Shown here: one piece after another, positions 12,363-34,435 of the stretch
Numbering within the stretch: position 1 is the stretch's first letter
Layout: each line of letters opens with the position of its first letter
Assembly (NCBI GenBank): GCA_903847405.1
Contig: CAINDP010000039.1
Span: 1-34,619 of the forward strand
Length of the DNA stretch: 34,619 nt
DNA from: an uncultured Myxococcales bacterium
GTDB taxonomy: Bacteria > Myxococcota_A > UBA9042 > DTJE01
Direction of reading: 5' to 3'
Translations under genes and position numbers: made by a program
Notes under the pieces: generated by a model
What the model saw: the letters and a program-made list of their open reading frames with translations, nothing else
Told to the model about the DNA's origin: nothing
The model's database searches: none

Positions 12363-14024
12363 ATGAGCCCGCGAAAGCGACGCGACGAAACGACGCCGCA
12401 GGATCTCCCGGTGGCAGGACCGGGTGCGGAAACCCAGCAGGTGGACATCCTGGGAATCCGGTTTCCCCTGTGGACGCGGGACCAGGCGCTGGGGGCCCTG
12501 CTGCAGCGCCTGCGCCAGCACCGGACCTCGGGCGTCTGCTTCCCCGACATGTCCTCGATGAACGTCGCGTGCGAGCAACCGGACTTCCGCCGACTGCTGC
12601 AGGAGCGCCTGCTGGTGCTGAACGACGGCGCCGGCCTGGCCTGGGCGTCCTGGCGCCGCGGAAAGCCGTTCCCGGCCAACCTCAACGGCACCGACCTGAC
12701 GCCGGCCCTCCTGGACGCGGCGCCGGCCGGGACCCGGGTGTACCTGGTCGGAAGCCGTCCGGACGTGATCGCCCGGGCCCGCGACCGGTTGTCCAAGCGT
12801 TTCACCCACATCGTCTTCGTCGGCCACGACCACGGATTCTTCGACGTGGACGGCGAGGAGGCCGTCGCGGCGGAAATCGCCCGGTGCAAGCCGGACGTCG
12901 TCATGGTCGGGATGGGCAACCCGCGGCAGGTGCGCTTCATCGGACGTCGCCTGGACGACCCGCGCCTGCAGGGCATCCTGTGGCTGGCCGTGGGCGGGTT
13001 CTTCGAGTACTGGGGCGGCAACCTCCGCCGCGCGCCGGAGTGGGCGCGCAGGTCCCGGCTGGAGTGGCTGTACATCGTGTCCCAGCAGCCGTACAAGTCC
13101 CGGCGCTACTTTGCGGGGATCCCGCGCTTCCTGGGGCGCTGCCTCGCGGCGGACCTCGAAGGCGCCCACGACTGGCCCGGCGTGGACGGCAACGGCCGGT
13201 CGGTGGCTTCCCCCACCCTCCGCAGCCATGTGAAGAGCCTGGCCCGGATGGCCACTGCGCGGATGGCCCGGGCGGCAGGGGCCGGCGACCCGGACGCCCC
13301 CCGCATCCTGTGCTACCACGGCGTGTCGCCCCACAACGAGGACGAGTGGTGCGTGACGCCGGATCAACTGGCCGCGCAGATGGCCGAACTGTCCCGGACC
13401 CGGGTTCCGGTGGACCTGGCGGCGATCCAGGCGTGGCTGCGGGGCGAGGCCGACCTGCCGCCCCGGGCGGTCGCCGTGACCTTCGACGACGGCTACCTGG
13501 ACGTCCTGCAGGACGCCGCGCCGATCCTGGCCCGGTTCGGGGTGCCCGGCGCCGTGTTCGTGTCGCCCGCCCTGGTGCGGGGCGGCGCCTCGGCGGCGCA
13601 TCCCGAGTTCCAGGTGCGCCGCCCCCTGATGGATGCCGCCCAGGTGCGCGAAATCGCGGCCGCCGGGTGGACCCTCGGCTCCCACGGGATGACCCACGCT
13701 CCGCTGGCCCACCTGGACGCCGCCCGGGCTCGTCACGAAATCGTGGACTCCAAGACGGAACTGGAATTCCTGCTGGGCCAGCCGGTCACGCTGCTGGCCT
13801 ACCCCTACGGAACGCCCGGCACGGTGTCGGCCCGGGAGCACGCGCTGGCCGCCGAGGCCGGTTACGATGCCGCCATGGTGGCCATCACCGGCACGCTGCG
13901 ACGCACCGACGATCGGTTTGCCCTGCCCCGGGCCAAGGTTCTGGGCACCGACGACCCGCACACCTTCACGGCGATCCTCGACGGCGCGATGGACGTCTGG
14001 CGCGTGATCGAACGGACCCACTGA
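12363..14024 (+). CDS. GT26 (WecG/TagA/CpsF) glycosyltransferase fused to NodB polysaccharide deacetylase
   Basis: A 553-residue two-domain protein; the ATG follows GGGAG with a seven-base spacer. Residues about 28-260 match the WecG/TagA/CpsF family: FPDMSSMNVA, the acidic NDGAG, LNGTDL, GMGNPRQ and a VGGFFEYWGGN...RAPEW segment ending EWLY. Known family members transfer N-acetylmannosamine or its uronic acid to a lipid-linked sugar at the cytoplasmic membrane face. The family GxPKQE motif has Val in place of the Glu here. After a linker (about 262-310) comes a NodB domain: TFDDGY with Asp375/Asp376 and SHGMTH with His441/His445, so the Asp-His-His metal site is intact; AYPYG follows. No signal peptide was seen, so both activities would be cytoplasmic, acting on the lipid-linked intermediate. 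The fusion implies that the sugar is deacetylated at or soon after transfer. The domain calls are firm; the substrate is inferred. Confidence 0.9.
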   Translation: MSPRKRRDETTPQDLPVAGPGAETQQVDILGIRFPLWTRDQALGALLQRLRQHRTSGVCFPDMSSMNVACEQPDFRRLLQERLLVLNDGAGLAWASWRRGKPFPANLNGTDLTPALLDAAPAGTRVYLVGSRPDVIARARDRLSKRFTHIVFVGHDHGFFDVDGEEAVAAEIARCKPDVVMVGMGNPRQVRFIGRRLDDPRLQGILWLAVGGFFEYWGGNLRRAPEWARRSRLEWLYIVSQQPYKSRRYFAGIPRFLGRCLAADLEGAHDWPGVDGNGRSVASPTLRSHVKSLARMATARMARAAGAGDPDAPRILCYHGVSPHNEDEWCVTPDQLAAQMAELSRTRVPVDLAAIQAWLRGEADLPPRAVAVTFDDGYLDVLQDAAPILARFGVPGAVFVSPALVRGGASAAHPEFQVRRPLMDAAQVREIAAAGWTLGSHGMTHAPLAHLDAARARHEIVDSKTELEFLLGQPVTLLAYPYGTPGTVSAREHALAAEAGYDAAMVAITGTLRRTDDRFALPRAKVLGTDDPHTFTAILDGAMDVWRVIERTH

Positions 14025-17451: not shown

Positions 17452-17474
17452 GAAATGGGGACAGACACCATTTC
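17452..17474 (+). repeat. REP-like hairpin element, copy A
   Basis: GAAATGG and CCATTTC form a perfect 7-bp stem around the loop GGACAGACA. It starts three bases after the HD gene stop and lies between two convergent genes, where it could also help end transcription. It has no T-run. The core GGGGACAG recurs in the elements at 27504, 28866, 29003 and 29059. Confidence 0.6.
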
Positions 17475-17480
17475 CGGCGG

Positions 17481-19013
17481 TCACCGCCTGACGAGGATCC
17501 GCCGCACGACGGCCCGGTCCTGCGGGGTCATCCCCAGGACCACGAACAGGCCCGCGAACACCAGGCAGCCCGCCGCCGCCTCGGCCAGCACCGCGGCGAG
17601 GTTCGGGGGCGGCAGGATCGCCTTCAGCCCCATCATCGCGGCCCAGGCGCCCAGGGCAGGCAGCAGCGACGGGACGAACACGCCCCGCACGTACTCGACG
17701 GCCCCGATGCCGAACGCATGCCGGACCAGGGCCACCACCACGCAGACGTCCACCAGCGCCGTCGCCGTCAGCGTGCCCAGCGCCACGCCCGGCAGGCCGA
17801 TCCACCACACCAGCAGCAGGCTGGCGCCCAGGTTCACGGTCATGCTCAGGAACGCCGCCCAGGCGGTCAGGCGATGGTGCCCGGTCATGCTGAACACGCC
17901 CGAGGCGACCATCTGGGGCACCAGCAACGCCACCGAGGTCATCAGGATCGTCATCACCACGGCCGCCTCGCCGTAGTCCGGCCCGACCCAGGCCGAAAGC
18001 GCCTCGCGTCCCAGGGCCAGCGACGCCACCGCCATCCCCGCGGCCGGCGCCAGCGCGAACCGGGCGCCGGTGATCAGCAGGGCACGAACGTCGTCCTTCC
18101 GCCCCGCACCGCTCATTTCGGCCGCCAGCGGCCCCAGGACGTTGACCCCCTGCTTGATCAGCATCAGGGCGTTTTCGGCGACCTTCAGCGCCACCCCGTA
18201 CAGGGCCACCGCCGTCAGCGGCAGGAAGGCGTTCACGATGATCGGATCGGTCCGCAGCAGCACCAGCGACGATACGGTCACCACGAACTGCGCCGCACTG
18301 ATCCACACCGCCGACCCCAGCAGGGTCCGGTCGAAGCGCCGCACGGATATCCGCAGGTCCGGCGTCGTCGCAAACGCCGCGACGACATACACGACATGCT
18401 CGACCGCGAAGGCCGCCAGGTTCGCCCACGCCAGCCCGATCAGGCCTCCCCCCATCTCCAGGGCGGCAACGGACGACACGGCATACAGCAGGGTCCCGCC
18501 GGCCTGCAACAGGTTCACCAGGCCGATCCGCCCGTTGCCGAACAGGATCGAACGGAACATCCCGAACGGCAGGCTGACCGCGATCGACCGCGCCGCCAGG
18601 ACCCACAGCAACGGCAGGGCCGCGTCCCGCTGGGTTTCGGGAATCCCGAACAGGTCCGCGTAGACCGGCGTCATCCCGGCGACGATCGCGGCGGCCAGCA
18701 GCGCCAGGCCCAGGTACACCGCCATCATCGTGCTCAGCATCCGGTTGCGGCGATCGACCGCCTCCAGGCCCCCGCGCGCATGGACGGCCCCCCGGGCCTC
18801 CGCCGTGAACCGGATTACCGTGGTCGTGAACCCGAAATCCACCAGGGACAGGAAACCCAGGACCGAAAACGTCAGCGTCCACAGGCCGAACCCGGCATCG
18901 CCCAGGTGCCCGATCATGTAGGGGACCAGGGCCAGTTGGACCACGATGACGACGCCGTATCGCAGGTACGACGTCAAGGTGTCGGTGGCCACGCGTCGCG
19001 CGTGTCCGCTCAT
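17481..19013 (-). CDS. Wzx-type oligosaccharide flippase (MOP superfamily)
   Basis: A 510-residue polytopic membrane protein with an estimated 12-14 hydrophobic segments. The N-terminus (TLTSYLRYGVVIVVQLALVP) and the early pattern LGDAGFGLWTL...LVDFGFTTTVIRF are typical of polysaccharide flippases, which move undecaprenyl-diphosphate-linked repeat units from the cytoplasmic to the periplasmic face. Charged residues such as Arg/Asp within helices fit a substrate-dependent translocation path. The ATG at 19013 overlaps the stop of the polymerase gene in an ATGA, so the two are likely translationally coupled. It is the last gene of the phosphodiesterase-polymerase-flippase operon. Pairing with a Wzy-type protein supports a Wzx/Wzy pathway. 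Confidence in the family is high; the transported unit is unknown. Confidence 0.9.
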   Translation of the reverse strand: MSGHARRVATDTLTSYLRYGVVIVVQLALVPYMIGHLGDAGFGLWTLTFSVLGFLSLVDFGFTTTVIRFTAEARGAVHARGGLEAVDRRNRMLSTMMAVYLGLALLAAAIVAGMTPVYADLFGIPETQRDAALPLLWVLAARSIAVSLPFGMFRSILFGNGRIGLVNLLQAGGTLLYAVSSVAALEMGGGLIGLAWANLAAFAVEHVVYVVAAFATTPDLRISVRRFDRTLLGSAVWISAAQFVVTVSSLVLLRTDPIIVNAFLPLTAVALYGVALKVAENALMLIKQGVNVLGPLAAEMSGAGRKDDVRALLITGARFALAPAAGMAVASLALGREALSAWVGPDYGEAAVVMTILMTSVALLVPQMVASGVFSMTGHHRLTAWAAFLSMTVNLGASLLLVWWIGLPGVALGTLTATALVDVCVVVALVRHAFGIGAVEYVRGVFVPSLLPALGAWAAMMGLKAILPPPNLAAVLAEAAAGCLVFAGLFVVLGMTPQDRAVVRRILVRR

Positions 19014-20509
19014 GTCAGGCCCCCTTCCCGCGCCCAGACGGGCGGTTCATCCCGGATCGGAACCCATTCGCCCGTGATCTGCGGCTGGCGTCCGGGCGTC
19101 CCGGGTGCCGTCGGTGCTCCGCCCGGGGGCGTCGTCGGTCCGCCGTCTTCCGTCCCCTTCGTGCCGTCCGGCGGCACGTCGATCGTCCGCCGGGCCTTCC
19201 GCGCGGCAACGGCGGCCACCCGCGACACCTCTGCCAGGCCCACGGACAGCCCCGCACAGAACAGGAACATGTAGAAGATCGGCGTGATCCGGAAGACCCA
19301 CTCCAGGAACCCGGACAGGTGCAGGACCAGCATGCCCAGGGCGATGGACGCCTGGACCAGCCCGTCGAACCCCCTCTGCCGGAACGCCTGGAACGACGCA
19401 TGCCACAGGAACCGCAGCAGCACCATCGCGAACACGACCAGCCCGATCCAGCCCATCTCGGCGGCGGTCAGGAAGTACACCTCGTGGCACACCCCCTTCT
19501 GCTTTTCCGCGGCCATGATCTTGATCATGCTGTTGTATTTCGGGGTGTTGGTCAGCACGTACGAAAACTGGTTGACGCCCACGCCCAGCGGATTGTCCGT
19601 CGCCATGGCCGCCGCGGCGCGATTGAACTCCTCGCGCGCCATGTGGGAGGACTCGGGCGCCTCCAGGAACCGTTCGACGATGCTGCGACCGGTGATCAGC
19701 CCCCCCAGCCCCAGGGCGCCGACCACGACCAGCGACGCGACCGTGACACGGATCGACTTCGTCTTCCGGTTCGCGACCAGCAGGACCCCCAGGATCGCGA
19801 ACAGCGAAAGGACCATGCCCGCCCGGCTGAACGTCATGACCACGGTCAGCAGCATCGCCATGACGGCTCCCAGGCTGACCAGCGACGCCGACGTCGACAG
19901 CCAGCGCGAGGCCAGGCCCATGGCCAGCAGGATCGGAAGCACCTGGTTCAGGAACAGGGGCACCGTGTTGGAGTGATCGAAGGTCGCCGGGATCCGGTAC
20001 AGGCCCTGCCCGTACTTCTGGTACATCGCGTACAGCGCAAACAGGATGCCGATGGCCAGGATCCCGCGCCACACCGACTTGATCGGGACCCCGACCCGCA
20101 GGACGTTGACGACCGTCCAGTACAGGACGAACCCGCGCAGCATCTTCCAGATCGTGAACGACGCCAGCAGTCCCTGGGGCGCGTCGATGATCGACAGCAC
20201 CGCCACCCCGAAGTACAGCACCATCAACCCGGTGTTGTAGGGGATCCAGGAAATCCGGCCGGGCTTGCGCGCGATCACCGCCAGGGCCAGCGACCACGTG
20301 ATCAGGTCGGCCAGCGTGACCTCGAAGCCCCGGTCGGGCCCCCGGTAGGTTTCGATCGACAGGAGGTGCATGTTGCCGTGATCGCCCAGGCCGGTCGCGA
20401 AGATCAGCGCGGAAAACAGGTATCCCCGCAGTTTTTCGGACCGCCAGGCCAGGAACGTCATCATGGGCACGGCGAAGATCATCAGCAGGGCGAAGACCGC
20501 GTACTTCAT
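19010..20509 (-). CDS. O-antigen ligase/Wzy-type polysaccharide polymerase
   Basis: A 499-residue multi-spanning inner-membrane protein. The ATG at 20509 follows GGAGGGGCGGC. It has the Wzy_C/O-antigen ligase pattern: many hydrophobic helices, then a large periplasmic loop with NPLGVGVNQF near residue 305 and CHEVYFLTAAEMGWIGL near 340. The His followed by an E-L-type helix is the usual active-site region, with HE where HN is commoner. The family joins undecaprenyl-linked oligosaccharides into polymers or ligates them to an acceptor; with an adjacent Wzx and a Wzz-like protein nearby, polymerase is the more likely role. Residues about 436-499 form a hydrophilic Pro/Gly/Thr-rich tail that is not part of the family fold and is probably cytoplasmic. 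Its stop overlaps the flippase start. Confidence 0.88.
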   Translation of the reverse strand: MKYAVFALLMIFAVPMMTFLAWRSEKLRGYLFSALIFATGLGDHGNMHLLSIETYRGPDRGFEVTLADLITWSLALAVIARKPGRISWIPYNTGLMVLYFGVAVLSIIDAPQGLLASFTIWKMLRGFVLYWTVVNVLRVGVPIKSVWRGILAIGILFALYAMYQKYGQGLYRIPATFDHSNTVPLFLNQVLPILLAMGLASRWLSTSASLVSLGAVMAMLLTVVMTFSRAGMVLSLFAILGVLLVANRKTKSIRVTVASLVVVGALGLGGLITGRSIVERFLEAPESSHMAREEFNRAAAAMATDNPLGVGVNQFSYVLTNTPKYNSMIKIMAAEKQKGVCHEVYFLTAAEMGWIGLVVFAMVLLRFLWHASFQAFRQRGFDGLVQASIALGMLVLHLSGFLEWVFRITPIFYMFLFCAGLSVGLAEVSRVAAVAARKARRTIDVPPDGTKGTEDGGPTTPPGGAPTAPGTPGRQPQITGEWVPIRDEPPVWAREGGLT

Positions 20510-21724: not shown

Positions 21725-21756
21725 TTGACGCGCACGGATGCGATGCGCAACGATAG
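21725..21756 (+). promoter_or_regulatory. divergent intergenic region with possible promoter
   Basis: The 96-base gap between the phosphodiesterase start (21698, minus) and the deacetylase-GT2 start (21795, plus) must carry the signals for both operons. On the plus strand TTGACG (21725-21730) is a good -35, and AACGAT at 21749 is a weak -10 after 18 bases. On the minus strand TATCGT (21756-21751) could be a -10, but no good -35 was found. Confidence 0.25.
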
Positions 21757-21794
21757 CACACCCGTCCTCCGAGGGACCTGTTCCGGGAGACACG

Positions 21795-23510
21795 ATGCCC
21801 GACGCACCTGTGCCGGACCCGACGCTCGACGTCCCGACCGGGCTCCCCGCCCCCCGGCGCCACCTGCTGACCGTCGTGGTGGAGGACTATTTCCAGCACT
21901 CCGCCTTCAGCAACCTGATCCAGCCGGACCGCTGGCGGCGCTTCGAGGCCCGGGTGGGCACGAACACCCGGCGGGCGCTGGCGCTGCTGGACGAATACGA
22001 CATCAAGGCGACCTTCTTCACGGGGGGCTGGATCGCCGAAAAGATGCCCGACATCCTGGCCGAGGTCGCCGGCCGCGGGCACGAAGTGGCCAGCAAGGGC
22101 TTCTATCACCGCCCGCTGCGGGAAATGTCCCACCGCGAGTTCCGGGACGACCTCCGGCGCTCCCGCGTGGCCATCGAGCGCGCCTCGGGGGTCCGCTGCT
22201 GGGGCCATCGCGTCGCCCAGGGCACCTTCACGCCGGAGGACCTCTGGGCCCTCGACGTGCTGGCTGAGGAGGGCTTCGCCTACGACTCGTCCTTCTTCCC
22301 GCGCCTGGCCGACATCCGCAAGGAGCCCTGGCGGCGCTACCCGCACCTGCACCACCACGCCGGGCACGACCTCTGGGAGGTGCCGTTGTCCAGCGTGGGG
22401 CCCGCGTGGATGTCCATCCCGGCCGCGGGGGGCAACTACTTCCGCCAGATGCCCCCGGGCCTGATGCGCATGGTGGTCGAATCCTGGGACCGGGCGCTGG
22501 ACGCTCCGTTCAATCTGTATTTCCACGTCTGGGAACTGGACCCGGAAATGCCGCGCATCGATGCCGTGAACCGCCTGACGCGGGTCCGGCAGTACCGCAA
22601 CCTGGACAAGATGGAGGGCATCCTCCGGGACTACTTCGCGCGCTACCGGTTCGGCAGCATCGCGGCGCACCTGGGCCTGGACCCGGCCGCACCGGCTGCG
22701 ACGCGCGCCGCCGAGGATGTCCTTCCGGCCGGCGCACGGGCCTCCAAGCGTCGCAAGGCGTCGCTCCCGCCTTCGGACGAGCCGCCCGTGCCCATCACGA
22801 TCGTCATCCCGCTGTTCAACGAGGAGGAGGCCCTCCCCTACCTGCGCAACACCCTCGACGAAGCGATGCTGGACTTCTACCGGCGCTACGACGTGAAGTT
22901 CGTGTTCGTCGACGACGGCAGCACCGATTCCACCTGGAACGTCTTGCGGACCATGTTCGGCCAGCGGACCAACTGCGCCTTCGTGCAGCAACCGAAGAAC
23001 AGCGGCGTGGCGGCGGCGATCCTGGCCGGCATCCGGGCCGCCACCACCGAGGTGGTCTGCTCGATCGACTGCGACTGCACCTACGATCCGCGGCAGTTGC
23101 TGGAAATGATCCCCATGATGACCGACGGCGTGGACATGGTGACGGCGTCGCCGTACCACCCGCAGGGACAGGTCATGAACGTGCCCGAGTGGCGTCTGGC
23201 CCTGTCGAAGGGCCTGTCCTTCCTGTACCGCCGCCTGCTCCACAACCACCTCGCGACCTACACGGCGTGCTTCCGGGTGTATCGTCGCTCGGCGGTGGAG
23301 CAGGTCGAAGTGACCGAGGGCGGCTATCTGGGCGTGGTGGAAATGCTGGCCCGGATGGATCTGGCGGGTTCGCGCATCGTGGAGGCGCCCGCCGTGCTGG
23401 AGGTCCGCATGATGGGCCAGTCCAAGATGAAGGTGGTCCGGACGATCCGCGGACACCTGGGCCTCCTGGCCCGCATGACCGCGACTCGATTCCGGGGGAA
23501 GGTCACGTGA
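21795..23510 (+). CDS. polysaccharide deacetylase (DUF3473-like) fused to GT2 glycosyltransferase
   Basis: A 571-residue protein; the ATG follows GGGAGA. Residues about 15-300 match the NodB/DUF3473 deacetylases of exopolysaccharide loci (VEDYFQHSAF, ATFFTGGW, then WALDVLAEEGFAYDSS and the late YFHVWELDP). Three motif positions differ: the usual DVEDY is VVEDY (Glu30-Asp31 kept), the metal-ligand motif SHGxxH is SKGFYH (Lys101 for the first His, His105 kept), and the usual GYRAP is GHRVA. Residues about 332-571 form a family 2 glycosyltransferase: VIPLFNEEEA, FVDDGSTDST and a DxD-like SIDCDCTYD, resembling polyprenyl-phosphate glycosyltransferases but without C-terminal membrane helices. The protein has no signal peptide. 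The gene starts operon 2, and its stop overlaps the next start (GTGA). Domain calls are firm; deacetylase activity is doubtful. Confidence 0.9.
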   Translation: MPDAPVPDPTLDVPTGLPAPRRHLLTVVVEDYFQHSAFSNLIQPDRWRRFEARVGTNTRRALALLDEYDIKATFFTGGWIAEKMPDILAEVAGRGHEVASKGFYHRPLREMSHREFRDDLRRSRVAIERASGVRCWGHRVAQGTFTPEDLWALDVLAEEGFAYDSSFFPRLADIRKEPWRRYPHLHHHAGHDLWEVPLSSVGPAWMSIPAAGGNYFRQMPPGLMRMVVESWDRALDAPFNLYFHVWELDPEMPRIDAVNRLTRVRQYRNLDKMEGILRDYFARYRFGSIAAHLGLDPAAPAATRAAEDVLPAGARASKRRKASLPPSDEPPVPITIVIPLFNEEEALPYLRNTLDEAMLDFYRRYDVKFVFVDDGSTDSTWNVLRTMFGQRTNCAFVQQPKNSGVAAAILAGIRAATTEVVCSIDCDCTYDPRQLLEMIPMMTDGVDMVTASPYHPQGQVMNVPEWRLALSKGLSFLYRRLLHNHLATYTACFRVYRRSAVEQVEVTEGGYLGVVEMLARMDLAGSRIVEAPAVLEVRMMGQSKMKVVRTIRGHLGLLARMTATRFRGKVT

Positions 23511-24940
23511 CGACGAAAGGCACACGAACGAAAGCGGCTGCGAAACCGGCCCGTGCCGCGGCAGGCGGCGATGCCGGCAACGGCCTGCACCGGGTCCCCG
23601 GTCCGCCGCGTTGGGCCGTGGTCGGCGGCGGGATGCTGGGCCTGACCCTCGCCCACCGCCTGGCGGGACAGGGCAAGGACGTCACGATCATCGAGGCCGC
23701 CCCGCACCTGGGCGGCCTGGCATCCGCCTGGACGATCGACGGTATCACCTGGGACCGGCACTATCACGTCATCCTGGCCTCGGACGGGCACCTGCGGCGC
23801 GTCCTCGCGGAAATCGGCCTGGACGGCGACATGCAGTGGGCGACCACCCGCACCGGCGTCCTGGCCGACGGCCGCCTGATGTCCCTGTCCAACACCATCG
23901 AGATGGCGACCTTCCCGGTGCTGAACCTCGTGGACAAGGCGCGCCTGGCCGCCACGATCCTGCATGCCTCGCGCATCGAGGACGGCCGCCCCCTGGAATC
24001 GATCCCCGTCGCCGACTGGCTGACGCGCTGGTCGGGCCGCCGCGCCTTCCAGCGCTTCTGGCTGCCGCTCCTGCGCAGCAAGCTGGGCGACAACTACCGG
24101 CAGACGTCGGCGGCGTTCATCTGGGCCACGATCCGGCGCCTGTACGCCGCCCGGCGCAGCGGCCTCAAGGAGGAGCGTTTCGGGTACGTCGCCGGCGGCT
24201 ATGCCCGCGTGCTGGAGCGGTTCGCTTCGACCCTGGCCGCGGAGGGCGTCCACCTGTCCCTGGGCCGTCCCGTCGCGCGGATCTTCGCCGACGCCGGCAC
24301 CCCGACCGTCCAGTTCGCCGACGGCGCGCGCGAAACGTTCGACCGCGTCGTCGTCACCGCAGCGGCGCCCCTGGCCGCCCGCCTGTGCGACGGCCTGTCG
24401 CCCGACGAACAGGCGCGCCTGGCGGGCGTCAAATACCAGGGCATCGTCTGCCCCTCCGTGCTGCTGAAACGCCCCCTGGGGGGCTTCTACGTCACGAACC
24501 TGCTGGATCCGGCGCCCTTCACCGGCGTCATCGAAATGTCCGCCCTGGTGGACCGCGACCGCTTCCTCGGCGGGCGCCATCTCGTGTACCTGCCGCGGTA
24601 CGTGGCCAGCGACGATCCGTTCCTCAAGGTCCCGGACGACCAGATCCGCGCGACCTTCCTCGAGGCCCTCTTCCGTATGTTCCCGGATCTGCGCGCCGAC
24701 GACGTGCTGGCCTTCAAGGTCAGCCGCGTTCCGTACGTCATGGCGCTGCCGACCCTGCACTACTCGGATCGCCTTCCGTCGGTCCGCACGTCGATCCCGG
24801 GCGTCTACACCCTGAACTCGGCCCACATCGTGAACGGCACCCTCAACGTCAACGAAACCGTCCAACTGGCCGAGCGCGGCGCCCGTGCCTTCCAGGGCGA
24901 ATGGGTCGGCACGGACCTGCCTCCGCTGGACGGACCATGA
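23507..24940 (+). CDS. FAD-dependent oxidoreductase (protoporphyrinogen oxidase/amine oxidase-like)
   Basis: A 477-residue flavoprotein. It starts at a GTG overlapping the previous stop in GTGA, with GGGGGAAGG upstream. After about 35 Lys/Ala-rich residues comes the FAD-binding fold: VVGGGMLGLTLAHRL, then the IIEAAPHLGGLAS segment. A C-terminal NETVQLAERGARAF helix ends the FAD-binding domain. The fold groups with NAD(P)-binding Rossmann/amine-oxidase-type and HemY-like proteins that are often found next to glycosyltransferases and deacetylases in exopolysaccharide loci. No membrane helix is evident. The reaction is unknown; oxidation of a lipid-linked sugar, or a mutase-like role as in UDP-galactopyranose mutase, are both possible. 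A deacetylase gene follows after seven bases. Confidence 0.85.
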   Translation: MTTKGTRTKAAAKPARAAAGGDAGNGLHRVPGPPRWAVVGGGMLGLTLAHRLAGQGKDVTIIEAAPHLGGLASAWTIDGITWDRHYHVILASDGHLRRVLAEIGLDGDMQWATTRTGVLADGRLMSLSNTIEMATFPVLNLVDKARLAATILHASRIEDGRPLESIPVADWLTRWSGRRAFQRFWLPLLRSKLGDNYRQTSAAFIWATIRRLYAARRSGLKEERFGYVAGGYARVLERFASTLAAEGVHLSLGRPVARIFADAGTPTVQFADGARETFDRVVVTAAAPLAARLCDGLSPDEQARLAGVKYQGIVCPSVLLKRPLGGFYVTNLLDPAPFTGVIEMSALVDRDRFLGGRHLVYLPRYVASDDPFLKVPDDQIRATFLEALFRMFPDLRADDVLAFKVSRVPYVMALPTLHYSDRLPSVRTSIPGVYTLNSAHIVNGTLNVNETVQLAERGARAFQGEWVGTDLPPLDGP

Positions 24941-24947
24941 GGTGACC

Positions 24948-25937
24948 ATGAAACCGATCGCCAGCCTTTCCCTGGACCTCGACAACCTCTGGTCCTACAT
25001 GAAGGTCCACAACGACCCCGGGTGGGACACCTTCCCGTCCTACCTCGATCTGGTGGTCCCGCGCGTGCTGGACTTCCTGGAGTCCCGACGCCACGCCATC
25101 ACGTTCTTCATCGTCGGGCAGGATGCCGCGATCGACCGCAACCGCGAGGCGCTGGCGCGCATCGGCAGTTCGCGCCACGAGGTGGGCAACCACTCCTTCG
25201 CCCACGAACCCTGGCTGCACCGGTACACGCGGGCCCAGGTGGACGACGAAATCGCCCGGGCCGAGGACGCCATCGTCGCCGCGACCGGCCGTCGGCCCAC
25301 CGGCTTCCGGGGCCCGGGCTTCAGCGTGTCCACGACCGTCCTGGAGGTCCTGGCCGCCCGGGGGTACCGCTTCGACGCCTCGACCCTCCCGACGTTCATC
25401 GGGCCCCTGGCCCGTGCCTACTACTTCATGACCGCGCGCCTGGGCTCCCAGGAACGCGAGGAGCGCGGCGCCCTGTTCGGAACGGTCCGCGACGGCCTGC
25501 GTCCGGTGACCCCGTACCGGTGGAACCTGCCCTCCGGCGCCTCCATCGTCGAGATCCCCGTCACGGTCTTCCCGGTGGCCCGCGTGCCCTTCCACCTGTC
25601 GTACGTCCTGTACCTTTCGACGTTCTCGGAAACCGCCGCGCGCCTGTACTTCCGCACGGCCCTGGACGCGTGCCGCCGCACCGGCGTCGAGCCCTCGATC
25701 CTCCTGCACCCCCTCGACTTCCTGGGCGGCGACGACGTGAAGGAACTGGCCTTCTTCCCCGCCATGAACCTCCCTGCGAAGGTGAAACTGGAACGGGTCT
25801 CCCAGTACCTCGGGGACCTCGCGGAGCGCTTCGAGATCCTGCCCATGGGCACCCACGCCCGGGCGCTGGAGGGCCGAGCGGACCTTCCCGTCCGTGACCC
25901 GGACTTCGCCGAAATGCCCGCTGCCGCGGCGCCGTGA
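24948..25937 (+). CDS. polysaccharide deacetylase (NodB family), stand-alone
   Basis: A 329-residue protein; the ATG at 24948 follows GAGGTGACC. The NodB metal site is complete: LSLDLDN at the N-terminus (Asp10, Asp12) and GNHSFAH with His82 and His86, followed by TGFRGPGFS in the GxRxP position. A late ILLHPLDF contains the conserved histidine of motif 5. It would remove N- or O-acetyl groups from a sugar intermediate or polymer. There is no signal peptide, so it is predicted to be cytoplasmic, acting on lipid-linked precursor. It differs clearly from the two deacetylase domains fused to glycosyltransferases in this window. It sits between the FAD oxidoreductase (seven-base gap) and the polytopic membrane protein (seven-base gap), so all are very probably one operon. 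Confidence 0.9.
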   Translation: MKPIASLSLDLDNLWSYMKVHNDPGWDTFPSYLDLVVPRVLDFLESRRHAITFFIVGQDAAIDRNREALARIGSSRHEVGNHSFAHEPWLHRYTRAQVDDEIARAEDAIVAATGRRPTGFRGPGFSVSTTVLEVLAARGYRFDASTLPTFIGPLARAYYFMTARLGSQEREERGALFGTVRDGLRPVTPYRWNLPSGASIVEIPVTVFPVARVPFHLSYVLYLSTFSETAARLYFRTALDACRRTGVEPSILLHPLDFLGGDDVKELAFFPAMNLPAKVKLERVSQYLGDLAERFEILPMGTHARALEGRADLPVRDPDFAEMPAAAAP

Positions 25938-25944
25938 GGCGTTC

Positions 25945-27456
25945 ATGAACGAACTGGCCCGTCGTCTGACCGCCTCCATGCCCCTGCACGTCGCCGCCCT
26001 GATGGTGGTGACGTTCTTCGCCTGGGGCACGCCGGTGCCGACCGGGAACGAGGAGCACTACCTCGTGGTCCTGCGCGGCATGTGGGACCCGTCCTTCCTG
26101 CCGAACGACTGGACCTTTTCGACCTCCCTCCCCGACCGCTGGACCTTCGACGCCCTCTTCGGGGCCCTGGCCCTCGTCGTGCCCGTGGAGGCCATCGCCT
26201 GGGGCGGTCGCCTGGTCTGCTGGGCCCTGTCCCTCTGGGCCATCCTGCGCATCGGGCGACGGATGTCGGTCCCCCTGCCCCTGGCCGCCGTCGCCACGGC
26301 CCTGTGGATCCTGCTGGACCAGTCCCTGGTGGGCGGGGAATGGATGATCGGCTGGTTCGAAGCCAAGGCCGTGGCCTGGGTGTTCCTGCTGCACGCCATC
26401 GACGCGGCGATGGCCGGGCGATGGACCCGCGCCGCCGCCTTCGCGGGTCTGTCGGCGACCTTCCACCCGGCGGTGGGCGTGGTCGGCGGCGCGTCCCTGG
26501 CCCTGGCGGTCCTGGCGGTGCATCGGCCGTTGCGCGACCTCTGGAAGCCCGCCCTTGTCGGGGTGGCCTGCGGGCTGCCCGGGGTGATCCAGGCCGGCCT
26601 CATGACGATCGGCAGCGAACCGTCCACCGTCGACGACTGGCGCTTCCTGTCCACGTCGTTCCTGCGGATCCACATGGACGCCTCGACCTTCGACGTGGGC
26701 CTGATGGCGGCCCTGGTCCTGACCATCGCCTTCACCGTCACGTGGGCGCACCGCATGCGGGCACGGCCCGAATTCCGGATCCTGGCCTGGCTGCACGTGA
26801 TTCCGGCCGTCCTGTTCGCGGTCGGACTGCTGGCCCATGCGACCGGAGCCTGGAACCTGATGGCCCTGACGCCCTATCGACTCCTCCCGGCGATCAGCCT
26901 GCTGGCGTTCTGCCTGGCGGGGGCGTCGGCGCTCGCAGAGGCCTCGGTCGGCGCCACGGGAAGGGTCGCACCCCTCCTGGCCGCGGGCGCACTCCTGTGT
27001 CTTCCGGCCCTCCCCTCCCTGATCAAGGCCGAGGGCGCCCGACTTGCCAACGCATGGAATCCCCAGCCGGATTCCTACGAACTGGCCTTCGAGTGGATCG
27101 CTACGAGCATCCCCGATGGGGAAATCGGACTCGTGCCCCCGTGGAGGGGAGACGCGACCCTCCGCTCCCGTCACGGCCAGGTGGTCCACTGCGCAATGCC
27201 TCGATATGACAAACTTTCCGAGTGGCATCGCCGGATCGCAGACCTCCTCGGGGACGTGACCACCGCCGATTCCAGGGACCTTGGCCTGTCGTGGATCCGG
27301 GCGAAGGAGGCCTGGAAAACCCTGTCGGAACCCGACGTTGCCCGCCTGGCCTCGGAGTACCGCGCCACCTACCTCGTGACCGAGGCCAACTACTCGTTCC
27401 CCCTGGCATTTATCGCCCGCGAAGTGAAGGTCTACCGCCTCGCCCCACCCCCTTGA
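25945..27456 (+). CDS. polytopic membrane protein, possible GT-C-type glycosyltransferase
   Basis: A 503-residue inner-membrane protein; the ATG follows GTGAGGCG. A short N-terminal tail precedes a first helix (about residues 14-30). A loop with GNEEHYL and DPSFLPNDWTFS follows, then about nine further hydrophobic helices to about residue 365. The last ~135 residues are soluble (YELAFEWIATSIPDGEIGLVPPW... to the end) and probably periplasmic. An acidic pair in the first extracytoplasmic loop, many helices and a C-terminal soluble domain are the layout of GT-C glycosyltransferases that use polyprenyl-phosphate sugars. It resembles membrane proteins annotated as DUF6798, but that is recalled, not computed. 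With the GT2 domain of the operon resembling polyprenyl-phosphate sugar synthases, a donor-acceptor pair is plausible. Function is not proven. Confidence 0.8.
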   Translation: MNELARRLTASMPLHVAALMVVTFFAWGTPVPTGNEEHYLVVLRGMWDPSFLPNDWTFSTSLPDRWTFDALFGALALVVPVEAIAWGGRLVCWALSLWAILRIGRRMSVPLPLAAVATALWILLDQSLVGGEWMIGWFEAKAVAWVFLLHAIDAAMAGRWTRAAAFAGLSATFHPAVGVVGGASLALAVLAVHRPLRDLWKPALVGVACGLPGVIQAGLMTIGSEPSTVDDWRFLSTSFLRIHMDASTFDVGLMAALVLTIAFTVTWAHRMRARPEFRILAWLHVIPAVLFAVGLLAHATGAWNLMALTPYRLLPAISLLAFCLAGASALAEASVGATGRVAPLLAAGALLCLPALPSLIKAEGARLANAWNPQPDSYELAFEWIATSIPDGEIGLVPPWRGDATLRSRHGQVVHCAMPRYDKLSEWHRRIADLLGDVTTADSRDLGLSWIRAKEAWKTLSEPDVARLASEYRATYLVTEANYSFPLAFIAREVKVYRLAPPP

Positions 27457-27531: not shown

Positions 27532-27598
27532 GCCTCCGTGCCGATGAAGAGGAGGTTTGCGCGACTCCCCACCCGCAGCGTTTCGTCAGCACGGAGGC
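27532..27598 (+). repeat. 10-bp inverted repeat in the leader of the sugar transferase
   Basis: GCCTCCGTGC (27532-27541) is matched exactly by GCACGGAGGC (27589-27598), with 47 bases between. It lies 76-142 bases before the sugar transferase start, so if transcribed it would form a long stem in the leader. No known riboswitch consensus was recognised. The 27457-27673 gap holds this repeat, hairpin B and no clear promoter. Confidence 0.4.
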
Positions 27599-27673: not shown

Positions 27674-28840
27674 ATGTTGCTGGCCGCACTGAGCCGTCGC
27701 GCTCGCGGTCGGGCCATGCAGGTCTGGATGGGCCATATGCCCGGGATCGTGTCCCGGGACGAGTTCCATCGACTGCTGGCCAGGGAACGGGCGCGTTCCG
27801 ACCGCAATTCGCACGCATTCTCGCTGGTGGTATTCCGGACGTCGGGGGCGCCGTCGAACCTGGTTCGACGCGTCGCCGAACTGCTGCGGGACCAGCGCCG
27901 CCTGACCGACGACGTGGGCTGGGTGGATCCGCCCGACCTGGGCGTGCTGCTGCCCGACACGCCCGCCGCGGGCGCGCGCCGCTTCGCCGAAAAGATGCAC
28001 GCGGTCCTTCAGAAGGGGAGCTGCGACGTCGAGGATCGCATCTACACCTACCAGGGCAACTCCGACGATTCCTCGATGTGGGCGCCTCCCCCCCGTTCGA
28101 CGGACCGCGGGCAGGCGGAAGCGGCGACCGGTTCGCCCGCCGCCCTGGTGGAGCCGCAGCCCGCCAACCAGGTCGCGCTGGCCCCGACGCGTTCCACGCC
28201 GATCGTCCGGGTCGAGGACCTTCGCACCTTCTTCCTGAAGCCGTTGCCGACCTGGAAACGCGCGATGGACATCGTCCTGTCGGCCCTGATGCTGCTGATC
28301 CTTGCGCCGGTTTACGCGGCAGTGGCCATCGCGGTGCACCTGTCGGGCCCCGGGCCGATCATCTTCCGCCAGCCCCGGGCGGGCCCGGGCGGCAAGCCGT
28401 TCACCTTCTACAAGTTCCGCACGATGGTCCCGAATGCCGAGGCGCTGAAGGCTACCCTGCGGGTGGTCAACGAGGCCGAGGGTCCGGTGTTCAAGATGCG
28501 GAACGATCCGCGCGTCACCTCGGTGGGCCGTGTCCTGCGCCGCACCAGCCTGGACGAACTGCCCCAGTTGTGGAACGTGCTGAAGGGCGACATGTCGCTG
28601 GTCGGCCCCCGGCCGCCGACCCTCGACGAAATCCCGTCGTACGAGCCCTGGCAGAACCGGCGCCTGGAACTGACCGGCGGAATCACGGGAATCTGGCAGA
28701 CCAGCGGCCGCCACCAGGTCGGCTTCACCGACTGGATGCGGATGGACGTCCAGTACTCGAACCACCGCTCGCTGGGCATGGACGTGAAACTGCTGGCCAA
28801 GACGGTCTGGGCCGTGTTCTCCGGCCGCGGCGCGTCCTGA
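27674..28840 (+). CDS. priming sugar transferase with degenerate GGDEF-like N-terminal domain
   Basis: A 388-residue protein; the ATG follows GGGGGTACGAAG. The C-terminal half is an undecaprenyl-phosphate sugar-1-phosphate transferase: KRAMDIVLSALMLLI starts the membrane hairpin helix at about residues 196-223, followed by KFRTM near 247, DELPQLWNVLKGDMSLVGPRP near 294 and GITGIWQTSGR. It would attach the first sugar phosphate to undecaprenyl phosphate. The N-terminal ~110 residues resemble a shortened diguanylate cyclase domain: FHRLLARERARSDR and FSLVVF resemble the first helix and strand, and LGVLLPDTPAAGARRFAE matches the segment after the signature. The signature itself reads DPPDL (85-89), so catalysis is not expected. 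An RLTD motif (76-79) sits five residues before it, the spacing of the c-di-GMP inhibitory site. A Pro-rich linker joins the domains. Direct c-di-GMP control is inferred. Confidence 0.9.
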   Translation: MLLAALSRRARGRAMQVWMGHMPGIVSRDEFHRLLARERARSDRNSHAFSLVVFRTSGAPSNLVRRVAELLRDQRRLTDDVGWVDPPDLGVLLPDTPAAGARRFAEKMHAVLQKGSCDVEDRIYTYQGNSDDSSMWAPPPRSTDRGQAEAATGSPAALVEPQPANQVALAPTRSTPIVRVEDLRTFFLKPLPTWKRAMDIVLSALMLLILAPVYAAVAIAVHLSGPGPIIFRQPRAGPGGKPFTFYKFRTMVPNAEALKATLRVVNEAEGPVFKMRNDPRVTSVGRVLRRTSLDELPQLWNVLKGDMSLVGPRPPTLDEIPSYEPWQNRRLELTGGITGIWQTSGRHQVGFTDWMRMDVQYSNHRSLGMDVKLLAKTVWAVFSGRGAS

Positions 28841-28865: not shown

Positions 28866-28890
28866 GAAATGGGGACAGCCTCCGATTTTC
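28866..28890 (+). repeat. REP-like hairpin element, copy C
   Basis: GAAATGGGG and CCGATTTTC flank ACAGCCT; the arms pair imperfectly. It is nearly the reverse complement of copies D and E in the same intergenic region. Confidence 0.6.
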
Positions 28891-29002: not shown

Positions 29003-29026
29003 GAAATCGGAGGCTGTCCCCATTTC
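29003..29026 (-). repeat. REP-like hairpin element, copy D
   Basis: On the minus strand it reads GAAATGGGGACAGCC followed by TCCGATTTC, an imperfect stem-loop that differs from copy C by one T. It lies in the first 56-bp tandem unit. Confidence 0.6.
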
Positions 29027-29058: not shown

Positions 29059-29082
29059 GAAATCGGAGGCTGTCCCCATTTC
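29059..29082 (-). repeat. REP-like hairpin element, copy E
   Basis: Identical to copy D over its 24 bases. It lies in the second 56-bp tandem unit, 57 bases or more from the end of the outer-membrane protein gene. Confidence 0.6.
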
Positions 29083-30780: not shown

Positions 30781-32514
30781 TCAGGGGTTCGGTCCGTCCC
30801 CGAAGGCGCAGTCCACGAGGGTCGAGCGAACGTCCTCGAAGCCCGGGAGGGGGTCCGGAGGCAGGGGATCCACGATCGCGCAACCGGTCGTGCAGGTGCC
30901 GGCGATGCGCTGGACGTCGGCGAACACGATCCGCTGGAAGTCCGTTTCGGCATACCGGGCGTTGTAGAAGTCCGCCAGATCGGCCACTTCCCGCGCGACG
31001 CCCCGCTCGACCGCCTGGAATCCCGCCACGACCTCGTCCACCAGGCCCTGGCCCGGCACCTTGCGCCCCCGGCCGATGCCCGTGTAGCCCACGCCGTGGG
31101 ATTCCACCGCCTGGCGCCCTGTCAGGTTGCACCCGTCCACGAACCCCTTCAGCGTCGGGGCGCCCGCCGCCAGGATCCCGGCCACGTCGTCGGCATAGAC
31201 CCGGTGGCCGGTGCAGGCGATGGCCACCTCGGCCCCCCGCATGGCCTTGGCCAGATCGGGCTGGAAGTGGGCATTCAGGTCCGTGCGCATCAGGTTCTGA
31301 TCCCCCAGGCGCACGTAGGGGTCCGTCAGCGTGACGTGCGCCCCCCGGCCCAGCAGCAGGCGCGCCAGGGTCAGGGTCGGCGAGTTCCGCGTGTCCTCGG
31401 AATCGAACCGGTAGGCCGTCCCCAGCAGCACGAACTTCCGGCCCTCGATGTCCCCGAAGGCCCGCTCGGCCAGGTGAAGCGTCGCCATCGGCGAGGCGTC
31501 GTTGATCTTCCGCGCCCGCAGGATCAGGCTGTTCCGACCGTCATGGCCCGCCTCCAGGCGCCGCCACCACAGGAGGATGCCGTCCTTGGGCAGGCAGTGG
31601 CCGCCGACGCCGACCGTGGGCACCAGCAGGCCGCCCGTGGGTACCGCCGTGGGGTTGGCGGACGCGCCGTCGGTCTGGGCCAGGCGCACGTTCACCGCGT
31701 CCCGCAGCGCGAAGAAGTCCACCTCGTGGTCGTCGCACCAGCGGACGACCTCGGCGGCGTAGGCGATCCGGACGTCGCGGTAGGCGTTTTCCAGGGTCTT
31801 GACCATTTCCCCGGTCAGGCTGTTCGTGGGCAGCAGGATCCCCTGCGTCACGATGCGCCCGTACAACCGGTGGATCAGTTCCGGCGTGGCCGGGTTCAGT
31901 CCCGCGACGATCTTGTCGGAATCGCGAACGCGCTCGACCAGGCGGCCGGGCATCACGCGGTTCGGACTGTTGCCCAACAGGATGTCCCGGCCGTCCACCA
32001 GGCCGTGCCGGGCGAACAGGTCCCGCACCAGGGTCGCCATGGAGGACGGCGCCAGCGTGGACTCGAACACCACCAGGGGGATGTTGCCGGCCGGGCGTTT
32101 CGCCAGCGCCGCCGCCAGGCCTTCCAGGGCGTCGAACAGCGGGCCGTAGTCGGGGCCGAACCCCTTCTTGTCCGTCTGGACGCACACCAGCACCACGTCC
32201 GCATCGGACAGCGTGGAAATGTCGTGGGACGCGTCCAGCAGGCCCGCCGCGACCGACTCGGCCACGACGCGGTCCAGGTCCGGCTCGACGCCGCCGATGG
32301 GCGACTTTCCCGCGTTGATGGAATCGACCTTCCAGCCGGAGGTCGGCGAGGCGCGCTGGATGACCGTCACCCGGGCGGGCGTGTCGCTGCCCTCGCAGAT
32401 CCGGGCGTTGGCCAGCATGGCGGCCATCGGCATCCCGACGATCCCGGGCCCGATCACGCCGATGCGACGAACCGACCAGCCCTCGGGCCGGCCATCGATC
32501 AAGGTCAGGGGCAT
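30781..32514 (-). CDS. nucleotide-sugar 6-dehydrogenase (UDP-HexNAc/UDP-glucose dehydrogenase family)
   Basis: A 577-residue protein; the ATG at 32514 follows a consensus AAGGAGG with a five-base spacer. The N-terminal NAD-binding loop GPGIVGMP is near residues 23-30. NSPNRVMPGRLV matches the conserved PERVxPG segment of UDP-HexNAc dehydrogenases such as WecC and WbpA. NSLTGEMVKTLENAYRDVRI contains the active-site lysine-asparagine helix. The catalytic cysteine is in GVGGHCLPKDG. A C-terminal nucleotide-sugar-binding domain follows (GTAYRFDSEDTRNSP, then TDPYV). The enzyme would oxidise C6 of a UDP-sugar to the uronic acid. About 100 residues after the normal end (from about 470) form an unusual extension with CTTGC and a Pro-rich patch. 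The gene lies 37 bases after the asparagine-synthase-type gene, suggesting linked functions. The exact sugar is uncertain. Confidence 0.92.
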   Translation of the reverse strand: MPLTLIDGRPEGWSVRRIGVIGPGIVGMPMAAMLANARICEGSDTPARVTVIQRASPTSGWKVDSINAGKSPIGGVEPDLDRVVAESVAAGLLDASHDISTLSDADVVLVCVQTDKKGFGPDYGPLFDALEGLAAALAKRPAGNIPLVVFESTLAPSSMATLVRDLFARHGLVDGRDILLGNSPNRVMPGRLVERVRDSDKIVAGLNPATPELIHRLYGRIVTQGILLPTNSLTGEMVKTLENAYRDVRIAYAAEVVRWCDDHEVDFFALRDAVNVRLAQTDGASANPTAVPTGGLLVPTVGVGGHCLPKDGILLWWRRLEAGHDGRNSLILRARKINDASPMATLHLAERAFGDIEGRKFVLLGTAYRFDSEDTRNSPTLTLARLLLGRGAHVTLTDPYVRLGDQNLMRTDLNAHFQPDLAKAMRGAEVAIACTGHRVYADDVAGILAAGAPTLKGFVDGCNLTGRQAVESHGVGYTGIGRGRKVPGQGLVDEVVAGFQAVERGVAREVADLADFYNARYAETDFQRIVFADVQRIAGTCTTGCAIVDPLPPDPLPGFEDVRSTLVDCAFGDGPNP

Positions 32515-32551
32515 GGTGTCCTCCTTGTGAATCGCGGCGAGTTCACGCCGC

Positions 32552-34435
32552 CTACGGTGCATCAATGAACGTTCGATACCACAGTTCCAGGTTCAGCAGG
32601 CCCCACAACCGCCGCCCGAAGGCGTGCTCGCGGTCCAGCAGGCCTTCCACGGCGGTCGTGTCGAACAGTCCGCGCTGGCGGCAACGGTCGGACAGCAGGA
32701 CGTCCGCGAACAGGTCCCGGGCCTTGTTCCTGGCCCACAGGTGCAGCGGCACCGGGAAGCCCATCTTTTCCTTGCGGGCCAGGATGCGCGCGGGAACGAT
32801 GTCGCCGATGGCCTTCTTCAGCACGTACTTCATTTCGGCCCCCTTGAACTTCATCGCGGGGGGCATGCAGGTCACCAGGTCCACCAGGCGGTGGTCCAGC
32901 AGCGGCACCCGGGACTCCAGCGAGTGGGCCATGCTGACCCGGTCCTCGACGTGGAGCAGGGCGGGCAGGCTGGACACCATGTCGAAATGCGTCATGCGGT
33001 TGAAGAAGGACTGCGTGTCCGGGTGGTTGAACACCGACTGGAACCGGGCGAACGTCCCTTCGTGATCGAACGCCGCCCGGAAGTCGTCGGTGAACAGGCT
33101 GACCATGCCGCCGCTGCGGTCCACCAGGCGGAAATACCGGCGGTCCTGGGGCTCGAAGGCGCCCTCGGACCAGAACTCCCGCAACATCGGCACGTACTGC
33201 TTCAGGTACGGCAGGTTCGGCAGGATCGACTTCAGCGACACGATGTGCTCGCCTTCCTCGTTGTTTTCGAAGATGGCGCCCTTGATGGCCTGCTCGAGGT
33301 AGGCCACGACATACCGCGCGTAGCCGCCGAAGATCTCGTCGCCGCCCTGCCCTCCCAGCGCCACCGTGACCTGCTTGCGCGCGAAGCCGGACACGATGTA
33401 CTGCGGGAACAGGCCGGGGCCCGCCGCCGGTTCGTCCATGTGCCAGGCCAGGTGCGGCATCAGGTCCACGAACTCCTGCTCGGTCGGGTGGATCACGAAG
33501 GACGTCGCCCCGCAGGCGTCGGCCGCGACGCGGGCGTACTCGGACTCGTCGAACTCCGGCCCCTCGGCGAAGGCGCCCGTGAAGGTCTTCAGCGGCTCGC
33601 CGGCATACCGCGCGGCCAGCATCGTCACCAGGGACGAATCGGTTCCCCCCGACAGGTAGGTCCCGACGGGCACGTCCGAGCGCATCTGCAGGCGCACCGA
33701 GTCGGCGATCGTTTCGCGGATCCGGTCCTTGAAGTACTCCTCGGTGTGGTACGTGTCGACCTGGAAGCGGGGCTCCCAGTACAGGGTATCGCGCACCGTC
33801 AGGTCGCCCAGGTCGATCGTGAGGTAGTGGCCCGGCCGGACCTTGACCACCCCGTCGAACATCGTGGCGTCGGACAGACAGAACTGGAACGTCAGGTAGT
33901 CGCGCACCGCGGCGGCGTCCGGCTGGGCGCGCACGTCCGGGTGGCGCAGCAACGCCTTGATTTCCGACGCGAACAGCAGCCGCTCGGGGGTCGCGTGCAG
34001 GTACAGCGGCTTGATGCCGAAGTGGTCCCGGGCCGCCACCGCGATGCCCCGCGCCCGATCCACCAGCAGGAAGGCGAACATCCCGTTCAGGCGCTCGACG
34101 AACGCGGGGCCGTGCTGCAGGTAGCCCTGCAGGATGACCTCGGTGTCGGACGCGGTCTGGAACTGGCACCCCAGGCTCTTCAGTTCCTCGCGCAGCTCGA
34201 CGTAGTTGTAGATTTCGCCGTTGAACGCGATGACGGCCGGACCGCTGTGCATGGGCTGGTGGCCGGTGGCCAGATCGATGACCGACAGGCGCAGGTGGTG
34301 CAGGCCGACAGGACCGTCGATCCACTGCCCCTCGTCGTCCGGACCGCGATGGCGAATCACGTCCGCCATGCGGGTCAGCACGTCCGACTCCACCCGGTTT
34401 CCGGGACGCTGGAACACACCGACCAGTCCGCACAT
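32552..34435 (-). CDS. glutamine-dependent asparagine synthase-type amidotransferase
   Basis: A 627-residue enzyme. Cys2 follows the initiator Met and is the glutaminase nucleophile after Met removal (MCGLVGVF). RHRGPDDEG and FNGEIYNY complete the N-terminal Ntn-hydrolase domain. The synthetase domain has the ATP pyrophosphatase loop LSGGTDSS and later GGQGGDEIFGGYARY. Length and motifs match AsnB. Homologues in polysaccharide loci amidate uronic-acid carboxyls of nucleotide sugars or repeat units instead of aspartate. Its position directly before a nucleotide-sugar dehydrogenase favours that role here, but sequence alone cannot separate the two. The ATG at 34435 is preceded by GGTGAG. A candidate promoter lies 33-60 bases upstream. 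Confidence 0.93.
   Translation of the reverse strand: MCGLVGVFQRPGNRVESDVLTRMADVIRHRGPDDEGQWIDGPVGLHHLRLSVIDLATGHQPMHSGPAVIAFNGEIYNYVELREELKSLGCQFQTASDTEVILQGYLQHGPAFVERLNGMFAFLLVDRARGIAVAARDHFGIKPLYLHATPERLLFASEIKALLRHPDVRAQPDAAAVRDYLTFQFCLSDATMFDGVVKVRPGHYLTIDLGDLTVRDTLYWEPRFQVDTYHTEEYFKDRIRETIADSVRLQMRSDVPVGTYLSGGTDSSLVTMLAARYAGEPLKTFTGAFAEGPEFDESEYARVAADACGATSFVIHPTEQEFVDLMPHLAWHMDEPAAGPGLFPQYIVSGFARKQVTVALGGQGGDEIFGGYARYVVAYLEQAIKGAIFENNEEGEHIVSLKSILPNLPYLKQYVPMLREFWSEGAFEPQDRRYFRLVDRSGGMVSLFTDDFRAAFDHEGTFARFQSVFNHPDTQSFFNRMTHFDMVSSLPALLHVEDRVSMAHSLESRVPLLDHRLVDLVTCMPPAMKFKGAEMKYVLKKAIGDIVPARILARKEKMGFPVPLHLWARNKARDLFADVLLSDRCRQRGLFDTTAVEGLLDREHAFGRRLWGLLNLELWYRTFIDAP

Follow-up and report, generated by a model that had tools for sequence, protein, structure and literature searches.

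The plus-strand gene at 27674..28840 of the window (the whole stretch of 34,619 nucleotides that was analysed) encodes a protein in which a degenerate GGDEF domain precedes a monotopic phosphoglycosyl transferase. The N-terminal domain is a true member of the GGDEF superfamily, and the pattern of residues lost and kept makes it probable that this domain is a c-di-GMP receptor acting on the transferase. In all relatives checked the catalytic residues are lost but the signal-binding site is kept, so that c-di-GMP probably controls the first step of polysaccharide synthesis. The fused architecture forms a family that extends across at least two phyla.

Gene product and catalytic domain

The gene and its parts are as follows.

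27674..28840, plus strand: pseudo-GGDEF/monotopic phosphoglycosyl transferase fusion, 388 residues (ORF translation and family matches)
27731..28054, plus strand: degenerate GGDEF domain, residues ~20–127 (profile, model and Foldseek)
28061..28231, plus strand: disordered linker, residues 130–186 (pLDDT <50; 25–55% identity between orthologues)
28250..28837, plus strand: catalytic phosphoglycosyl transferase domain, residues 193–388 (PF02397; Foldseek matches to PglC, 8e37, and WbaP, 8t53)

Among orthologues MLxAALxRR is conserved, which supports a start at 27674. Reading of the same coordinates on the minus strand gives a 563-residue antisense open frame in this GC-rich DNA and was rejected in view of the overwhelming family evidence for the plus frame. 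The C-terminal half matches the Pfam family PF02397 (Bac_transf) over residues 195–382 with an E value of 6.1e-64 and 215 bits against a cut-off of 27, and the closest NCBIfam subfamily is TIGR03025 (exopolysaccharide polyprenyl glycosylphosphotransferase), with a score just under its own cut-off. In the full-length AlphaFold2 model (pTM 0.60), the catalytic domain is confidently predicted, the linker is disordered and how the two domains lie relative to each other is not fixed; Foldseek matches this model to PglC, WbaP and WspR. The catalytic domain contains a single membrane-entering helix and an intact Asp-Glu dyad (D294–E295), which we take to be the catalytic dyad by analogy with PglC and which is invariant in 30 aligned sequences. 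A match to PF13727 is absent from a Pfam scan of the full protein, and the N-terminus is instead a soluble GGDEF fold; a large transferase of the WbaP/WcaJ type, with four transmembrane helices and a CoA-binding-like DUF, was rejected on these grounds.

Substitution rates were compared between the protein in its own genome (G000) and that in genome G001, which belongs to the same genus. The catalytic domain has a dN of 0.075 and a dS of 0.413, and the N-terminal domain a dN of 0.052 and a dS of 0.498. The resulting dN/dS of ~0.1 in the N-terminal domain, compared with ~0.67 in the linker (dN 0.347, dS 0.517), indicates purifying selection that holds the domain as tightly as the catalytic part. 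A decaying remnant was rejected given this low ratio and the retention of the domain over two phyla.

Fold, lost active site and retained I-site of the N-terminal domain

A single-sequence phmmer search of the PDB returned a diguanylate cyclase with an E value of 4e-5. A family profile built from 13 family domains and searched against the PDB matched 3ign (3.7e-14), GcbC (1.4e-11) and WspR (~3e-6), with weak matches to PleD (E 0.04) and PelD (E 0.8). The GGDEF models of Pfam and NCBIfam miss the full protein (E 0.14–0.23, below cut-off), and the Pfam model matches seven of the 13 family domains when these are scanned singly, with a best E value of 1.8e-4. The AlphaFold2 model of the N-terminal domain, computed from a five-row alignment, has a pLDDT of 80.6 and the order α-β-α-β-β-α-β. 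Foldseek places c-di-GMP-bound GcbC first for this model (E 4e-7, probability 1.00); the TM scores to c-di-GMP-bound GcbC and WspR are ~0.83–0.84, and the best 50 matches are GGDEF structures throughout, including WspR and PleD. A chance resemblance to GGDEF was rejected on the family-profile and Foldseek E values. An earlier note, made from the DNA sequence, had read the N-terminus as a shortened diguanylate cyclase-like domain and had suggested a comparison of its predicted structure with GGDEF folds together with a profile search. The reading is borne out by the modelled fold, by the family profile and by Foldseek; the profile search itself divides, the family profile matching clearly and the single-sequence Pfam and NCBIfam searches remaining below cut-off.

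The positions discussed below are the following.

27794..27805, plus strand: R41 and R44, equivalents of PleD R313 and WspR R198 (position in the alignment and distance from the metal-Asp column)
27899..27910, plus strand: RLTD, residues 76–79, the RxxD of the I-site (R76 in 25/25 and D79 in 25/25 family members)
27926..27940, plus strand: DPPDL, residues 85–89, the lost GGDEF motif (GGDEF lost in 25/25 family members)
27992..27994, plus strand: K107, equivalent of PleD R390, WspR K273 and PelD R402 (alignment)

Conservation was assessed in an alignment of 25 family domains (from Myxococcota, Planctomycetota and one Methylococcaceae genome) with 47 canonical GGDEF domains, the latter taken from the own genome and phylum and chosen in part because they resembled the family profile. 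Fifteen positions are at least 90% conserved in the canonical domains; twelve of these are lost in the family, and R44, R76 and D79 alone stay at or above 90%. The two metal aspartates are among the losses, as are the GGDEF motif, the arginine preceding it and, in GHxxGD, the G and the D. An active cyclase with an odd signature was rejected because the catalytic positions are missing throughout the family. The stretch from the metal-Asp column (PleD D327) to the RxxD arginine measures 21 residues here and 19–25 in the family, against 32–33 in the canonical domains (n = 47), with 11 residues of the P-loop/GHxxGD stretch deleted in the 388-residue protein.

The WspR and PleD sequences were placed by PDB search. 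WspR residues R198, R242, D245 and K273 correspond to R44, R76, D79 and K107, and since all four have counterparts the protein has the complete WspR I-site set. The counterpart of PleD R313, which we take to be an I-site residue, is R41. Among members with an intact helix, R44 is kept in 23/24 and R41 in 24/24, and over all members R44 is kept in 23/25. The five-residue spacing from RxxD to GGDEF is the same as in PleD and WspR.

The translation confirms the positions that the earlier note had given for DPPDL in place of GGDEF and for RLTD exactly five residues before it, and the shortened stretch agrees with its remark that FKxxND and GHxxGD are missing. Its proposal that orthologues might keep RxxD while losing GGDEF holds in every family member. 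Its further suggestion, that c-di-GMP acts on the sugar-committing enzyme, is supported by these results as a probable reading. The note had missed both the retention of R44, the second I-site arginine, and the extent of the architecture, which it took to be unusual. Unusual it is, being found in seven of 379 Myxococcota genomes, all of one family; it is not unique, as three copies occur in the own genome and more in Planctomycetota.

Family distribution and polysaccharide locus

The three enzymes of fused architecture in the own genome lie on contigs C39 (the window), C43 and C82. In the sampled Myxococcota the strong matches all belong to genomes of the own family; the other matches listed among the 379 genomes score at most 63 bits, and those inspected are ordinary cyclases. 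Fused proteins are present in Bythopirellula and Mariniblastus and in a single Methylococcaceae genome, and seven more were found in 246 genomes of Planctomycetota (the phylum of Bythopirellula). In the tree of transferase domains, all Myxococcota and Planctomycetota members group together in a clade without unfused enzymes (SH-aLRT 94), and the N-terminal domains of the same fused transferases form one clade against canonical GGDEF (SH-aLRT 96). The transferase domain of the Methylococcaceae protein (L007) falls outside the clade, with a single clade not rejected (AU p 0.37); the protein may have arisen by an independent fusion, or its long branch may be misplaced.

Several related arrangements were also observed. 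The closest orthologue (L125, G001:C136:35519-36684) carries a frameshift in the linker that splits the N-terminal domain from the transferase and that may be either a sequencing error or a true division of the gene. Genome G006 encodes a stand-alone pseudo-GGDEF copy of 134 residues (L120:3133-3537, minus strand) in which RSTD is kept and which has no transferase within 3 kb downstream; by analogy with EpsW, it is possibly a trans-acting partner. On C82, a GGDEF gene of canonical type is found ~7 kb upstream of the fused paralogue (G000:C82:46172-46657 and 53509-54726) and is possibly a dedicated cyclase. Small priming transferases with an N-terminal STAS domain occur in cyanobacteria (L035, L043, L057, L060, L069 and L076; the STAS domain was confirmed by Pfam in L060 and recognized from sequence in the other five), and a protein titled Deltaproteobacteria (L062) has an N-terminal receiver domain. 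These STAS- and receiver-fused enzymes are other cis-regulated priming transferases; they share with the present protein a small monotopic transferase behind an N-terminal regulatory domain and differ in the type of that domain.

The genes around the transferase include the following.

17481..19013, minus strand: Wzx-like O-unit flippase (NF041503, E 1.4e-21, below its own cut-off)
19010..20509, minus strand: Wzy/O-antigen ligase-type polymerase (PF04932, E 3.7e-15)
21738..23510, plus strand: polysaccharide deacetylase (XrtA-type, DUF3473) fused to a GT2 glycosyltransferase; syntenic in relatives
24885..25937, plus strand: polysaccharide deacetylase (PF01522); syntenic
25894..27456, plus strand: hydrophobic membrane protein with no Pfam match, just upstream of the transferase; adjacency kept in four relatives
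30781..32565, minus strand: nucleotide-sugar dehydrogenase (TIGR03026, above cut-off); syntenic
32552..34435, minus strand: asparagine synthase-like amidotransferase, akin to the XrtA/PEP-CTERM system (family matches)

An FAD oxidoreductase is also encoded in the locus, and the gene order around the transferase is conserved in genomes G001, G002, G005 and G011. Judged from these family matches and the gene order, the locus is a conserved Wzx/Wzy-type polysaccharide locus. No diguanylate cyclase or c-di-GMP phosphodiesterase was found within the window; c-di-GMP signalling is present in the genome, as indicated by 24 GGDEF and 19 PilZ matches genome-wide.

Elsewhere in the window, a WecG/TagA-type glycosyltransferase and a polysaccharide deacetylase share one frame (12363-14024, plus strand), which is an unusual pairing. 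Just downstream of the transferase gene, the 23-nucleotide sequence AAATCGGAGGCTGTCCCCATTTC occurs in perfect inverted/direct copies at 28866-28888, 29004-29026 and 29060-29082, two copies being inside a 56-nucleotide tandem duplication, with a weaker copy at 17453-17469; it looks like a REP-type intergenic repeat. A 17-nucleotide inverted repeat with a 33-nucleotide loop (27532-27598) lies between the upstream membrane-protein gene and the transferase start and has no Rfam match. For the leader, Rfam gave nothing at gathering thresholds, and a c-di-GMP riboswitch or another known RNA there was rejected accordingly; two weak Rfam matches near the gene are far below cut-off.

Proposed control by c-di-GMP and competing explanations

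The domain shares with the active diguanylate cyclases WspR and PleD the GGDEF fold, the I-site residues and the RxxD-to-GGDEF spacing, and differs from them in the absence of an active site, in the 11-residue deletion between the metal Asp and RxxD and in the fusion to a transferase. It also resembles PelD (Pel) and BcsE (cellulose): these are strongly degenerate GGDEF domains linked to exopolysaccharide that have lost the P-loop and helix and still bind c-di-GMP through the retained RxxD (PMC2170427, PMC7439463). PelD and BcsE are, however, separate subunits of synthase-dependent systems, whereas the present domain is part of the enzyme that primes a Wzx/Wzy-type pathway. A dead A-site with an intact I-site is likewise found in the Myxococcus histidine kinase SgmT and in PopA, where it is used as a c-di-GMP receptor (PMC3509222); their outputs are a kinase or a localization factor and, unlike here, their GGDEF-like motif is only lightly degenerate. 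In Myxococcus xanthus the exopolysaccharide priming transferase EpsZ is under post-translational control (PMC12802240), as is proposed here, but EpsZ belongs to the large transferases and its regulator is a phosphorylated receiver protein acting in trans, whereas the present enzyme is of the small type with a cis-acting domain of another kind.

The enzyme would initiate a Wzx/Wzy-type exopolysaccharide as its polyprenyl-phosphate hexose-1-phosphate transferase. In the predicted WspR-like I-site, R76, D79 and K107 would be supplied by one domain and R44 (with R41) by a second, and c-di-GMP, probably as an intercalated dimer, would bridge two N-terminal domains. Acting through the flexible linker, such bridging would alter how the catalytic domains pair or sit at the membrane, and priming activity would be raised at high c-di-GMP. 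Given binding, it is quite likely that c-di-GMP raises priming rather than lowers it: c-di-GMP is usually a positive signal for polysaccharide synthesis, and the receiver protein EpsW~P of Myxococcus is proposed to activate EpsZ by stabilizing the dimer (PMC12802240). Small transferases are functional monomers (PMC12802240), and activation could therefore run by a route other than dimerization.

The same residues allow other readings. A dead GGDEF fold might be a protein–protein or dimerization module that binds no nucleotide, with R44, R76 and D79 stabilizing the packing of helix and hairpin. Equivalents of R76 and D79 are near-universal in active GGDEF domains too, the RxxD arginine being present in 45/47 canonical domains, so that its retention in the family could partly be structural; the fold positions L93, G100 and A101 are likewise kept, and the stand-alone copy in G006 is of the sort expected of such a module. 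However, among the 15 canonical invariants it is exactly the WspR c-di-GMP contacts that survive. We know of no structural reason for keeping R44, R76 and D79 all together. WspR binds c-di-GMP at its I-site through R242 and through R198 of another domain, and mutation of either, the counterparts of R76 and R44, yields nucleotide-free protein (PMC2270323). We consider a nucleotide-free module unlikely. The evidence for a receptor is less uniform at position 107: PelD needs R402 and R402A abolishes its c-di-GMP binding (PMC2170427), yet the counterpart of this residue is variable here, basic in some clades and D, E, Q, A or T in 13/25 members or close to it, so that not every family member need bind.

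The domain might also sense another nucleotide, either UMP or a UDP-sugar, like the DUF of WbaP, or GTP or (p)ppGpp, and so balance the use of lipid carrier. The WbaP-type accessory domain does bind uridine nucleotides, and UMP inhibits WbaP (PMC10942596). We nevertheless regard this as very improbable: in no member does the cyclase pocket (metal aspartates, P-loop and GGDEF) survive, its parts being either deleted or substituted, and the I-site alone is left. The known ligand of the I-site is c-di-GMP. A variant of the preferred explanation, differing from it in sign, is that c-di-GMP binding has an inhibitory or relocating effect on the transferase, with the locus switched off or moved at high c-di-GMP. 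Binding at the I-site of cyclases is inhibitory and locks the domains in an inactive pairing (PMC2270323), and the I-site of SgmT and PopA controls localization (PMC3509222). Against this, the known cases, PelD and BcsE among them, are mostly ones in which c-di-GMP promotes exopolysaccharide, and we think inhibition or relocation improbable.

Each half of the fusion is of an already known kind, and regulatory fusions to such transferases exist (receiver and STAS). Our literature search returned no paper joining a phosphoglycosyl or sugar transferase with GGDEF; the fusion survey of O'Toole 2021 (PNAS) lay outside the search. We lean towards regarding these proteins as a family of priming glycosyl-phosphate transferases not described before, found in Myxococcota and Planctomycetota, with c-di-GMP acting directly on the enzyme. 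The family offers a natural series that varies in one I-site residue (107). For synthase-dependent polysaccharides, post-translational control by c-di-GMP is known in detail, but for Wzx/Wzy pathways it is poorly understood (PMC12802240). If the domain is a receptor, c-di-GMP would directly and allosterically switch the step that uses a shared and limited lipid carrier, undecaprenyl phosphate, and Wzx/Wzy-type polysaccharides would then be under allosteric c-di-GMP control in cis, as is known for synthase-dependent ones.
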